The position numbers and the translations under genes were made by a program. DNA of 60,466 nt. Source: Deltaproteobacteria bacterium (GTDB lineage: Bacteria > Desulfobacterota > Desulfobaccia > Desulfobaccales > 0-14-0-80-60-11). Every line of letters starts with the position of its first letter. The first letter of the stretch is position 1. The notes below the pieces were generated by a model. That model searched no databases. It was not told the DNA's origin and saw only the letters and a list, made by a program, of their open reading frames with translations. Location: the NCBI GenBank assembly GCA_021813445.1, contig JAKAKP010000146.1:1-60466 (forward strand), in the 5' to 3' direction. This document shows, one piece after another, positions 37,375-43,910 of this stretch.

Positions 37375-37524
37375 CCTCTTTGCAAAAATGGCTGGGCGAG
37401 GGGGATCCCCCAATCTCCTGCCACCTCCTGAAATACCCCCCTTTTTTTTAAAATAATCATTCATATATTTATTCAGGGTGGAAATAAAAACTTGTGCGCG
37501 CGTTTCTCCACCCTGGATGCAGCC

Positions 37525-39261
37525 ATGAATAACCTGAAAAGATTAGTCGTATGCCTGGCCGCCGCGGCCCTGACCCTGGGCTGGCTGTGGTATGTTTACC
37601 GGCCCCTGCCGTCGCCCCGGGCCAGCACCATGTCGGAGATTCAGACCGAAGCCGCCCGGGGCGGGTATCGCCTGATCGGCACCGAGGAGTTGGCAAAAGT
37701 CTGCCAAACCCCGCCCAAGGGGTTCCTGTTGGTAGATACCCGACAGCCTTGGGAATACCAAAGCGGTTATATCCAGGGTGCGGTTAATTTCCCCATGGAA
37801 CCCACCTGGTGGTGCCGCTGGCGCTCCCAGGCGCCCCTGGCGAAGCTGCTGGGGCCGGATAAGGCCCGGCTGATAGTCTTTTACTGCGCGGGCCCGGACT
37901 GTGTCCGCAGCGATGCGGCGGCCCGGCTGGCCGTCAAACTGGGTTATAAGAATGTACTGCGCGATCCTTTGGGGGCTCCGGCCTGGGAATCGAGCGGCCG
38001 GAAGCTCTGTACGGAATGCGCCACCTTGCAACACCCGGCCGCGGGGCCCCACGCCGGGCCGCTGGCGGGATGGGCCCTGGTCTGGACCCTGCTGGGAGTC
38101 TTCGCCGGCGGCATGGCCCTCAATCTCACCCCCTGCGTCTATCCCATCATCCCCATCACCGTGTCCTATTTCGGCGGCTACTGCGGCGCCAGTAAAGGGC
38201 GGCTGCTGGGCCACGGTCTCTTGTATGTAGCGGGCCTGGCGGTCACCAATACCGCTTTGGGGGTCATGGCGGCCTTAACCGGCAGCCTTATGGGCTCCAT
38301 ACTGCAAAATCCCCTGGTGCTGGTGACGGTGGCTGCGGTCCTGGCGGCGTTTGCGGCCAGCCTCTTCGGCCTCTGGGAACTCAAGCTGCCCAGCAGCCTG
38401 ACCCAGGCCGCGTCCCAATCCTATGCCGGCTATTTCGGCAGCCTGTTCATGGGCCTGACCCTGGGGGTGGTGGCCGCACCCTGTATCGGCCCCTTTGTCC
38501 TGGGCCTCTTGACCTGGGTGGCCGGCCTGGGCTCCCCCTGGCTCGGTTTCCTGGTCTTCTTCACCCTGAGCCTGGGGCTGGGGCTGCCCCTGTTCTTCCT
38601 GGCCCTGTTCTGCGGCAGCCTGGACAAGCTGCCCCGGTCCGGGGAGTGGCTGCTGTGGGTGCGCCAGCTCATGGGCTGGGTGCTGCTGGGCATGGCCGCG
38701 TATTTTATCCGGCCCCTCCTGCCCGAAACCGCCCGGGTGTTGCTCCTGGCCGGGGTGGCCCTGGCCGCGGCCATCCACCTGGGCTGGCTCAGCCGCACCA
38801 CCGCAGCCTTCCGGGGGTTCCCCTGGGTCAAGACTGCGGCAGCCGTGGCGGGGGTGGTCATCGCCACTTATCTCGTGGGCTCTTTTGTCCTGCGGGGGCC
38901 TGGAGTGAGCTGGCAGCCATATTCCGATCAGGCCCGGGCCCGGGCGCAGGCGGCCCATAAGCCGGTGATTATCGATTTTTACGCCACCTGGTGCGCCCCC
39001 TGCCGGGAACTGGACGAGATCACCTTTCACTATCCCGAGGTGGTGCAGTTGCTGGACCGGGATTTCGTCGCCTTCAAGGTGGACCTGACCCGGAGGGGGA
39101 ATCCTTTATTTGAACGGCTGCTCCGCCAATATGGTGTTAAAGGGGTGCCCACGGTGATCTTTTTGGATAAAGAGGGCAAAGAACTGCCCGGCATGCGCCT
39201 GGTGGACTATCTGTCGCCGGAGCAGTTGCTGCCCCGCCTGGTGGTGTTAAGCAAGGAATGA
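37525..39261 (+). CDS. Rhodanese-DsbD-thioredoxin fusion, thiol:disulfide interchange protein
   Basis: A 578-residue membrane protein that likely carries electrons from cytosolic thioredoxin to periplasmic thiols. Order: signal-anchor helix (about 5-22), a rhodanese domain (about 45-150) with FYCAGPDC, catalytic Cys121 expected; a DsbD/CcdA-type eight-helix core (about 170-455) with the redox pair Cys204 in NLTPCVYP and Cys320 in AAPCIGPF; and a C-terminal thioredoxin domain with WCAPC (Cys490, Cys493). In DsbD the N-terminal module is an immunoglobulin-like alpha domain; here a rhodanese replaces it, pointing to sulfane-sulfur chemistry in the periplasm (inference). ATG 37525 is preferred to the TTG at 37492. 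Confidence 0.88.
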   Translation: MNNLKRLVVCLAAAALTLGWLWYVYRPLPSPRASTMSEIQTEAARGGYRLIGTEELAKVCQTPPKGFLLVDTRQPWEYQSGYIQGAVNFPMEPTWWCRWRSQAPLAKLLGPDKARLIVFYCAGPDCVRSDAAARLAVKLGYKNVLRDPLGAPAWESSGRKLCTECATLQHPAAGPHAGPLAGWALVWTLLGVFAGGMALNLTPCVYPIIPITVSYFGGYCGASKGRLLGHGLLYVAGLAVTNTALGVMAALTGSLMGSILQNPLVLVTVAAVLAAFAASLFGLWELKLPSSLTQAASQSYAGYFGSLFMGLTLGVVAAPCIGPFVLGLLTWVAGLGSPWLGFLVFFTLSLGLGLPLFFLALFCGSLDKLPRSGEWLLWVRQLMGWVLLGMAAYFIRPLLPETARVLLLAGVALAAAIHLGWLSRTTAAFRGFPWVKTAAAVAGVVIATYLVGSFVLRGPGVSWQPYSDQARARAQAAHKPVIIDFYATWCAPCRELDEITFHYPEVVQLLDRDFVAFKVDLTRRGNPLFERLLRQYGVKGVPTVIFLDKEGKELPGMRLVDYLSPEQLLPRLVVLSKE

Positions 39262-39373: not shown

Positions 39374-39751
39374 TTAGGATTGGGCTTTCCGGGCGGCAAT
39401 AACCGCAAAACCTCCTGTCCCATGACCTTCCTTAACGGGCTCAACGCGGGTTATCTCTGCAGAGTTCCGGAAAAGCGTCTGCCAGGTCTCCAGGTGGCCG
39501 TAACCCAGGCCTTTAAGCCACTCCAGGACCGCAGCCACCCCGTAAAACCGGGCGTGGCGGTAGAATCTGCTCTGCTGTTTTTTGGCCTCGTAAACCCACC
39601 CCAGGGGACTTTCCCGGTCGATCAGGCCGATGATCAGCTGGCCCCCGGGTTGCAACACCCGGGTCGCCTCCTCCAGGGCCCGGCGCGGGTCCGGCAGGAA
39701 GCACAGGACCGTCACCAGCAGGACAAAGTCAAAGGGACTCCAGCCAATTCT
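39374..39751 (-). pseudogene. C-terminal remnant of a SAM-dependent methyltransferase
   Basis: The frame 39751-39374 encodes WSPFDFVLLVTVLCFLPDP and then ALEEATRVLQPGGQLIIGLI, the post-motif-I half of a class I methyltransferase, but the SAM-binding Gly-rich motif is missing and no good start exists (a GTG at 39715 falls inside the domain). An in-frame stop (39754-39752) precedes it. A deletion upstream probably removed the N-terminal half. It lies directly behind the selenoprotein methyltransferase, to which it is not closely similar. Confidence 0.7.
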
Positions 39752-39835
39752 TCAAAGATAAGGATATTTTTGTCTTCCATAGGTGCCGGCCAGACGCAAT
39801 GGTCCCAGCCCCCGAACCGGGGGCTATTTCGGCGC

Positions 39836-40675
39836 TCAGGCCCCCCCCGGCGCGCACTCCACGGCCTTAGGCGCCGTCAGGCTTTCCGCCTGGAGGGTGA
39901 TGGCCTCCCGGGCCTGAGCGATCACCAGCTTCTCCCCGTAAAACAGCGCCCCCTCGGTGTAGGGAGAGCTTTTAAAGCCGGTATAGCCGGTGAGGCTCGC
40001 GCGGTGGAAGCCCACTTTAAGCATTAAGGCCAGGAAGTCCCTTCCCGGCAAAGCGCCGCCGATTCACTGGTACCAGTTCTCCACCTTGCCCGCCTGCTCC
40101 GGGGGCAACTCCGCCACCAGCACCATGTCCGCCAGCAGCAGGCGGCCCCCGGGTTTGAGCACCCGGTGGGCCTCTTTCAGGGCCAGTTCCTTGTCCAAGG
40201 TGAGGTTGAAGACGCCGTTGGAAATGACCACGTCAAAATCCTGGTCCGGGAAGGGCAGGGCCTCGGCTTCCCCCACCCGGAAACTGACGTTTTGCAGGTT
40301 CACCAGCGCCAGATTGGCCCGGGCCTGCTCGATCATCTCCCCGGTGACGTCGATGCCCGCGGCCCGGCCTCCCGGCCCCACCAGGCGGGCGGCCACCAGG
40401 GTGTCAAAGCCCCCGCCGCAGCCGATGTCCAGGACGGCTTCGCCGGAGTAGATGGGTCCCAGGCTGAAGGGGTTGCCCACCCCGCAGAAGGACGCCAGGA
40501 CCGGGGCCGGAAAATCCCGGATCAGCTCCGGGGGATAATGCTGTTGCCGGACCCCTTCCTCCCCGGTGGGGTAGCGGAAACAGGCCCCGGGGCCGGAAGC
40601 CGCCACCTGGCTATATTTGCCCCGGATGCCGGCCCGGATCAGGGCCGCTTCTTGGTTAGTCAGGTTTGATTCCAT
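39836..40675 (-). CDS. ArsM-like SAM methyltransferase, predicted selenoprotein (in-frame UGA)
   Basis: The frame from ATG 40675 meets UGA at 40066-40064 (codon 204) and then stays open for 75 more codons to 39836 with sequence that completes the family. The SAM motif VLDIGCGGG is at 81-89, followed by ISNGVFNLTLDKELALKEA and RVLKPGGRLLLADMV. Around the UGA the reading is NWYQ-U-IGGALPGRDFLALM, and ArsM-type methyltransferases have Cys at this place (GCIAGAL-type motif). So UGA most likely encodes selenocysteine, giving 279 residues. The second ArsM cysteine (SNCVINL) is Gly here, so arsenite as substrate is uncertain. Cys32 and Cys64 remain. Four bases separate it from the flavin reductase gene, with which it forms an operon; AAGGAG precedes the start. 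A nonsense mutation is the alternative. Confidence 0.82.
40029..40063 (-). promoter_or_regulatory. SECIS-like hairpin just after the in-frame UGA
   Basis: On the minus strand GCCGGGAAG (40049-40041) pairs with CUUCCUGGC (40037-40029), nine pairs with one G-U, closing a GGA loop. The loop starts 23 nt after the UGA and has G in its first two positions, which agrees with the rules used for bacterial SECIS elements. The element lies inside the coding sequence, as is normal in bacteria. Confidence 0.7.
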
Positions 40676-40679
40676 GGCC

Positions 40680-41246
40680 TCACAACTCCTTGCCGATGGA
40701 AAAGGGCTTGCCTAAATAGGCCCCGATCCCATGATAGGTGCGGATTTCCGGGCCAAAGACAATGGGTTTCACCTTCTCGATATCCGGGAGGCCCTTTTCC
40801 CCCAGCACGCTCCCTTCGGCCTTGACGTCCAGGATTTCCCCCACAAAGAGGGTGTGTAAACCGATCTCCAGGGTGTGGAAGAGCTTGCATTCCAAAACTA
40901 ACGGAAATTCCTGGACATAGGGTGCGTCCACCAGGTCGCCCTTGACCGGGGTCAACCCGGCGGCGGCAAATTTATTGCCGGCCTTGCCGCTGGCGATGCC
41001 GCAATAATCGGCCTCCTTGACGCGGTCTGCCGGGGGGATGCTGATGGTGAAGGCCCGCTTGAGCATTAAGCTGCCATAGGTGTAAGTAGCCTTGCGCAGG
41101 GAAACCGCCACGCAGGGCGGCTGGGAACAGCAAATACCGGCCCAGGCTGCGGTCATGACGTTGGGCTTGCCTTCCGCGTCAAAAGTCCCCACCAGCCAGA
41201 CCGGCGTGGGGAAGGCCAGGGTCCTGGCGCCCAAAGATTTTTTCAT
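40680..41246 (-). CDS. Flavin reductase-like (FMN-binding split-barrel) protein
   Basis: A 188-residue cytoplasmic protein of the flavin reductase-like domain family. Typical: PTPVWLVGTFDAEGKPNVMT with the FMN-contacting region, WAGICCSQPPCVAVSLRKATYTY, and the later EFPLVLECKLFHTLEIGLH and HTLFVGEILDVKAEG. It probably binds FMN; electron partners are unknown. ATG 41246 has a strong GAGGAGGGG site, while the longer open frame to 41396 is repeat-derived. It is the first gene of an operon with the selenoprotein methyltransferase, so it may reduce that enzyme or its product (inference). Confidence 0.88.
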   Translation of the reverse strand: MKKSLGARTLAFPTPVWLVGTFDAEGKPNVMTAAWAGICCSQPPCVAVSLRKATYTYGSLMLKRAFTISIPPADRVKEADYCGIASGKAGNKFAAAGLTPVKGDLVDAPYVQEFPLVLECKLFHTLEIGLHTLFVGEILDVKAEGSVLGEKGLPDIEKVKPIVFGPEIRTYHGIGAYLGKPFSIGKEL

Positions 41247-43070: not shown

Positions 43071-43910
43071 ATGAAGCTCAAGTTTTCAGACCGTATTGGG
43101 ACAACAACGCCATCGAATGTTCTTCAAGTCAATGAAATGAGTATTGCACTAAGAAATTCTCTTTGGAATTATTTACTGAGAACTATATTAAATAATAATG
43201 ATGCAAGTGGACAAAAAAGGACGAGAGCAAGTATCTCTATAATTTGTCAATATTTCTTTAAGCTACCATTGGATGAGCTACCTAGTGGTTCTGTTAAAAT
43301 GAAAATATGGTTGAGAAATATATTTTTCAATAATAATTTTAAATGGTATGATGTTTATAATTTAATAGAATTCATATCTGATGAAGTTGCCACTTATGAT
43401 AACTTTCGAAAAGAAGTTAATAATATCCTCGAAGAAGAAATGTCTGGTTATAGATATGTTGGCACTAAACTTGCTCCAATAACAAGCCATGCAGAAATCG
43501 AAAGCATAGCTTCGAGTATAGAGTCGGCCAAAGCGAACCAATTATTCGGAACTGCCAAACATTTAGAAACAGCAGTTACATTATTGTCAAATATGCCAAC
43601 TCCTGATTATCGAAACTCTATTAAGGAGTCAATAAGTTCTGTCGAATCTCTTGTGAAACAAATTACAGGGGAGGAATCTGGGGGCTTAGATAGGGCTCTG
43701 GCAAAATTTGAAGCAAATGTTAAATTTCATGGAGCATTTAAATCGGGCCTATTAAGCCTTTATGGATATACAAGTGATGAACATGGAATTAGACATGCTA
43801 TTCTTGATGAACCAAATGTTGGATTCGATGAAGCAAAATTTATGATTGTTACTTGTTCTGCCTTGGTCAATTTTTTAATTTCTAAGGCAAATAAATATGG
43901 TTTGATATAA
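43071..43910 (+). CDS. AbiJ-like abortive infection protein (AbiJ-NTD4 plus HEPN-like domain)
   Basis: A 279-residue protein. The N-terminus KFSDRIG followed by VLQVNEMSIALRNSLWNYLL matches the AbiJ-NTD4 domain as I remember it. The C-terminal half is helical and HEPN-like with DRALAKFEANVKFHGAFKSG, LYGYTSDEHGIRHAIL and FMIVTCSALVNFLISKAN. Such proteins are suspected phage-defence effectors, HEPN domains often being RNases. The gene is strikingly AT-rich (codons such as AAT, ATA, TTA) in GC-rich surroundings and sits alone, which points to recent horizontal gain. GGAG lies 9 bases before the ATG. No antitoxin or partner gene is seen. Confidence 0.72.
   Translation: MKLKFSDRIGTTTPSNVLQVNEMSIALRNSLWNYLLRTILNNNDASGQKRTRASISIICQYFFKLPLDELPSGSVKMKIWLRNIFFNNNFKWYDVYNLIEFISDEVATYDNFRKEVNNILEEEMSGYRYVGTKLAPITSHAEIESIASSIESAKANQLFGTAKHLETAVTLLSNMPTPDYRNSIKESISSVESLVKQITGEESGGLDRALAKFEANVKFHGAFKSGLLSLYGYTSDEHGIRHAILDEPNVGFDEAKFMIVTCSALVNFLISKANKYGLI

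Follow-up and report, generated by a model that had tools for sequence, protein, structure and literature searches.

A methyltransferase gene with two in-frame UGA codons in a desulfobacterial genome: a putative double selenoprotein with an ArsM-like predicted fold and an altered ligand site

The window, which is the whole stretch of 60,466 nucleotides that we analysed, carries on its minus strand a methyltransferase gene (40675 to 39824) that almost certainly encodes two selenocysteines, each of them specified by a UGA codon together with its own downstream SECIS hairpin. Regarding the function of the protein, we lean, by a small measure of preference, towards a methyltransferase for a soft metal or metalloid, in which Cys64 and Sec204 would form the binding site and a mobile arm with Cys274 and Sec280 would serve for reduction or hand-off.

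The reading frame begins with the ATG at 40675 and runs through 203 sense codons to a TGA at 40064-40066, and then through 75 further sense codons to a second TGA at 39836-39838. The first-pass annotation had described these 203 codons, the UGA and the 75 codons of the same frame, and they are present as described. It had also expected that a normal annotation would cut the gene at 203 residues and, indeed, ordinary gene calling gives an ORF of 203 aa. Furthermore, it had ended the gene at the second TGA with one Sec and one hairpin, and this end is wrong. Codon 280 is followed by GCG CCG AAA TAG, which gives U-A-P-K-stop and extends the gene to 39824, that is, to 283 codons plus TAG, with Sec204 and, very probably, a second selenocysteine, Sec280, whose separate SECIS-like hairpin, which starts at the TAG and extends beyond it, had also been missed. 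Reading through one UGA of this gene still misses the second Sec.

Translated with TGA as U, the protein matches NCBIfam NF047649, the methyltransferase/UXPK-star double selenoprotein family, with 516.9 bits against a cut-off of 460 (residues 1-280 on positions 1-280 of the 283 of the profile), and the name of this family points to a second Sec in the window protein. The UXPK-star domain model NF047647 matches the gene end with 42.5 bits (cut-off 35), the sole place in the genome above the cut-off. Both sequence features of the family were found: one UGA lies in frame within the methyltransferase domain, and the gene closes with UGA-x-Pro-Lys-stop. The table of a 2026 review (PMC13188914) lists NF047649, gives it two Sec and a UxxG motif, and credits it to Haft & Tolstoy 2025 (mSystems 10:e0141724). 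The window gene is a further member of this already catalogued family, from which it does not differ in the full-length match, the two Sec positions or the UxPK-stop tail, and the double selenoprotein itself is not new. To this the present analysis adds four observations: the change of metal ligands, the covariation of the hairpin at the 3' end, the pairing with a flavoredoxin gene and a TsoB that has Cys in place of Sec. Two other selenoprotein families, NF041536 and NF041537, in which ArsM carries a fused DUF2284 or AhpD domain, have the same Sec-clade methyltransferase domain and likewise an extra C-terminal part that bears Sec, but there it is a folded domain whereas here it is a short arm; the window protein scores under both cut-offs (365.1 vs 510 bits and 312.9 vs 575 bits, respectively). 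A PHROGs search of the window protein returned generic methyltransferases only.

The residue at codon 204 was compared among 97 aligned related proteins, as the first-pass annotation had suggested: it is UGA in 85 of them, whereas 11 have Cys and a single one has Gly, and the UGA-bearing loci span many phyla. The homologues run on past this site instead of ending there. Actually, the sequence after the UGA is the more constrained part of the gene: among 13 relatives of the UXPK type, codons 205-249 show 0.096, 0.107 and 0.327 differences per site at codon positions 1, 2 and 3, compared with 0.218, 0.154 and 0.386 for the part before UGA204, a pattern which indicates that purifying selection acts beyond the UGA. 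The third-position bias is absent from the variable linker of residues 250-272 (0.357, 0.455 and 0.430), and the last eleven codons are constrained again (0.279, 0.239 and 0.478). These correspond to the conserved C-terminal arm, residues 273-283 (ECAPGGAUAPK; 39827..39859, minus strand), a tail of low pLDDT in the predicted structure; Cys274 and the terminal Sec are kept in 13 of the 13 relatives, with the Sec one column off in two rows. The same genome has the machinery for decoding, with tRNA-Sec (selC, 76.2 bits), selA (598), selB (364) and selD (371) all above their cut-offs, and its selD contains an in-frame UGA of its own. The proposal of Sec at codon 204 is thus backed by the 85 UGA loci, the codon-position bias and the sel genes, and none of the three contrary results that the first-pass annotation had listed turned up.

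According to the bacterial SECIS model of PMC13188914, the loop lies 16-37 nt after the UGA and has G in its first two positions, and two hairpins of the gene agree with this model. The first one (40029..40049, minus strand) is the nine-pair hairpin with a GGA loop that had been noticed at a suitable distance from the UGA, and its loop is found 23 nt after UGA204. It lies inside the coding sequence, and in all 13 relatives the hairpin is kept and its GGA loop stands precisely 23 nt from the UGA. The pair that closes the loop is changed on both sides, being G-C in eight relatives and A-U in five; there is little further covariation, because the hairpin also codes for protein. The second hairpin (39806..39826, minus strand) starts at the TAG, in non-coding DNA, and has nine pairs including G-U and a GTT loop 18 nt after UGA280. 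Its sequence is highly changeable across 12 distinct relatives, and yet the pairing is kept in 93.8% of the cells, with changes on both sides in seven of eight pairs. The covariation score was 0.667, against 0.250 for shuffled alignments and at most 0.247 when the hairpin was slid, in a loop-centred register that was set by hand and favours the structure somewhat. We also considered this hairpin as a terminator and rejected it, since the window shows no run of T behind it and the loop, which lies at the SECIS distance, opens with G. The single-sequence folding energies of the two hairpins are unremarkable (z of -1.00 and -1.66), so they were not used as evidence, and an Rfam search gave no match in this stretch.

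The reading of the first-pass annotation, in which UGA204 alone is Sec and codon 280 simply ends the protein, is therefore very improbable. UGA is a normal stop codon and just three residues lie beyond this one, but the UXPK-star model above its cut-off, the constraint on the last eleven codons with their conserved Cys and Sec, and a covarying hairpin in non-coding DNA at the SECIS distance all stand against it, and we consider it ruled out by the tail motif and the hairpin. The idea that the gene is a pseudogene, or that codon 204 results from a nonsense mutation or a sequencing error, can be practically dismissed, because the stop of ordinary gene calling at 203 aa and the truly truncated methyltransferase just downstream (39374-39715) are outweighed by a UGA at the same codon in 85 loci of many phyla, by the codon-position bias that reveals selection past it and by the complete Sec machinery of the genome.

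In two relatives, L009 and L010, U-x-P-K is followed at codon 284 by another UGA, which has to serve as the stop, four codons past the UGA of the Sec. We count this against our best explanation, as the rules by which position governs decoding are only partly understood. These two loci are a natural test of how the SECIS position decides between Sec and stop.

Regarding the fold, an AlphaFold2 model built from 58 window and locus sequences reached a mean pLDDT of 91.8, with values of 54-74 after residue 250. Among the matches to this predicted structure ArsM was the best, with 4fr0 at Z 25.2 (rmsd 4.8 over 219 residues) and 5evj at Z 24.2 (rmsd 2.5 over 206 residues). ArsM is the best match in sequence as well, so that the protein was rightly called an ArsM-like methyltransferase, and as modelled it has the ArsM fold. 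The fold, the SAM site and the position of Cys224/Sec204 are common to the window protein and ArsM/AS3MT (4fr0, 5evj, 8xt7; NF008823). The differences are Val and Gly in place of Cys72 and Cys174, a new Cys64 and the second Sec in the tail.

In the sequence alignment Cys72, Cys174 and Cys224 of ArsM fall on Val66, Gly154 and Sec204, which bears out two points made earlier, namely that the UGA stands at a conserved ArsM cysteine and that the Cys of the SNCVINL motif of arsenite methyltransferases is Gly here, where the window reads SNGVFNL. Residues 64, 66, 154 and 204 are C-V-G-U in 84 rows of the alignment and L/Y/V-C-C-C in 11, a count that is biased because the 80 genome loci were retrieved partly by means of the peptide around Cys64. 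As an independent check, blind to codon 204, we searched 395 genomes of the phylum with a DNA pattern for CGVGNPF. It gave 25 matches. Of these, 24 were methyltransferases, every one with UGA at codon 204 and Gly at 154; the pattern found no member of the Sec clade with Cys in place of this UGA. In a tree built without columns 64, 66, 154 and 204, the Sec rows fall on one side of a branch with support 100/99, the 85 rows on that side including the Gly form (L040). Thus the alignment and the blind search show that, in the Sec clade, a new invariant cysteine (Cys64; codon at 40484..40486, minus strand), which we propose as second metal ligand, stands two residues before the position of the lost Cys72.

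The arsenite methyltransferase model NF008823 gives 195.7 bits, below its cut-off of 263. A published filter demands three of four conserved cysteines for an arsenite methyltransferase (PMC5552862), and at the places of the CmArsM ligands Cys72, Cys174 and Cys224 the window protein has Val66, Gly154 and Sec204, which, even with a possible Cys44 equivalent, makes at most two of the four. The protein is ArsM-like in fold and fails the tested defining features of arsenite methyltransferases. Arsenite had already been doubted as substrate, and this doubt is supported by the lost equivalents of Cys72 and Cys174 and by the NF008823 score.

Directly upstream, on the same strand, lies a gene (40680..41246) which ends 4 nt before the methyltransferase ATG. 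It had been described as a flavin reductase gene four bases upstream; the position and the domain stand (PF01613, Flavin_Reduct, 118.8 bits), and more precisely it belongs to the flavoredoxin family, matching flavoredoxin 2d5m with E 9.8e-78 over residues 1-187. Ten UXPK genomes have 700 nt or more of sequence before the gene. In eight of them a flavoredoxin gene is found upstream on the same strand; in the other two it is absent from this place, which we count against our best explanation. One relative of the AhpD type also has an upstream flavoredoxin, and no flavoredoxin was found adjoining the gene in the other Sec methyltransferase loci.

The converging neighbour (37492..39261, plus strand) is a gene of the TsoB family, a rhodanese/DsbD fusion (NF045694, 913 bits, cut-off 805). 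TsoB and the methyltransferase occur on the same contig in six of six other genomes of the genus, with one partial copy at a contig end, and the two are associated by synteny only. At codons 132 and 137 the window TsoB has Cys, whereas four relatives of the same genus have UGA at both. On a different contig (C82), adjacent to TsoA, the genome of the window carries a further TsoB that has two UGAs, so that the Sec form and the Cys form of one selenoprotein coexist in one genome. It also holds two methyltransferase paralogues of the DUF2284-like type, each directly preceded by a short TsoA-like frame (ERUMQMC) with an in-frame UGA (L134, G000:C134:50909-51139; L135, G000:C106:38901-39131); these frames are possible small selenoproteins not listed so far. 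Just downstream of the double selenoprotein gene there is a methyltransferase remnant (39374-39780, minus strand), in which a Methyltransf_11 domain lacks its start and retains its C-terminal part; in L010 and L012 the methyltransferase is followed by stretches around 60% identical to it. At 43071-43910 (plus strand) the window encodes a protein with AbiJ N-terminal domain 4 (PF18863, E 5e-28), possibly a phage-defence gene.

In the mechanism that we favour, Cys64 and Sec204 would bind, beside SAM, a metal(loid) or organometal that is soft and two-coordinate, and the selenolate of Sec204 would help to turn the bound atom nucleophilic, the methyl group then being transferred from SAM. The flexible C-terminal arm, with Cys274 and Sec280, may attack at Sec204 and either carry the product off or resolve an oxidised Sec204, and the flavoredoxin of the adjacent upstream gene may supply the electrons. 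What Cys64, the arm and the flavoredoxin do is inferred here. Thioredoxin reductase has a Gly-Cys-Sec-Gly tail and mercuric reductase a C-terminal Cys pair. In both enzymes the C terminus forms a mobile arm whose residue pair serves redox chemistry or metal binding, as proposed here by analogy, but their fold and reaction are unrelated to those of the window protein, so that the likeness would be in working principle only.

That the enzyme is a variant of ordinary arsenic detoxification, which methylates methylarsenite or another partly methylated arsenical with Sec204 and Cys64 as its two ligands, is a possible but rather unlikely alternative. ArsM being the best match in fold and sequence argues for it, and so do the arsenite methyltransferase names that the sister families carry in NCBIfam. 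Moreover, a passage of PMC3877260 gives three thiols as needed for arsenite, two for methylarsenite and one for dimethylarsenite, so that a methylated arsenical could be accepted by such a site. Against this, the NF008823 score is under the curated cut-off and the equivalents of Cys72 and Cys174 are gone across the whole clade. We regard as improbable a selenium or tellurium methyltransferase, in which Sec204 would handle selenide or a selenium compound and not a metal; the Sec-rich setting and the loss of the three-thiol arsenite site speak for it, and the chemistry of a soft element would fit it equally well, but no selenium metabolism genes were seen adjoining the gene, and our results do not separate this reading from that of a metal. 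Compounds of Hg, Se, Te or Sb are all possible substrates.

The favoured Cys64/Sec204 methyltransferase would probably help its host, which belongs to an anaerobic desulfobacterial lineage, to detoxify a soft metal(loid) or to deal with the redox chemistry of such an element. More tentatively, and with less confidence than in the mechanism itself, we suggest that the whole Sec clade might form an enzyme class of its own, in which Cys and Sec provide the two ligands for a different soft element or organometal, a mobile Cys/Sec arm completes the catalytic cycle and a flavoredoxin is the electron donor. If this were true, the arsenite methyltransferase names of the sister families would be wrong. 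The clade-wide Cys-Val-Gly plus Sec, as opposed to Leu-Cys-Cys plus Cys, is a testable ground to doubt that label, which covers widespread selenoproteins of sulfate reducers, Nitrospirota and others.
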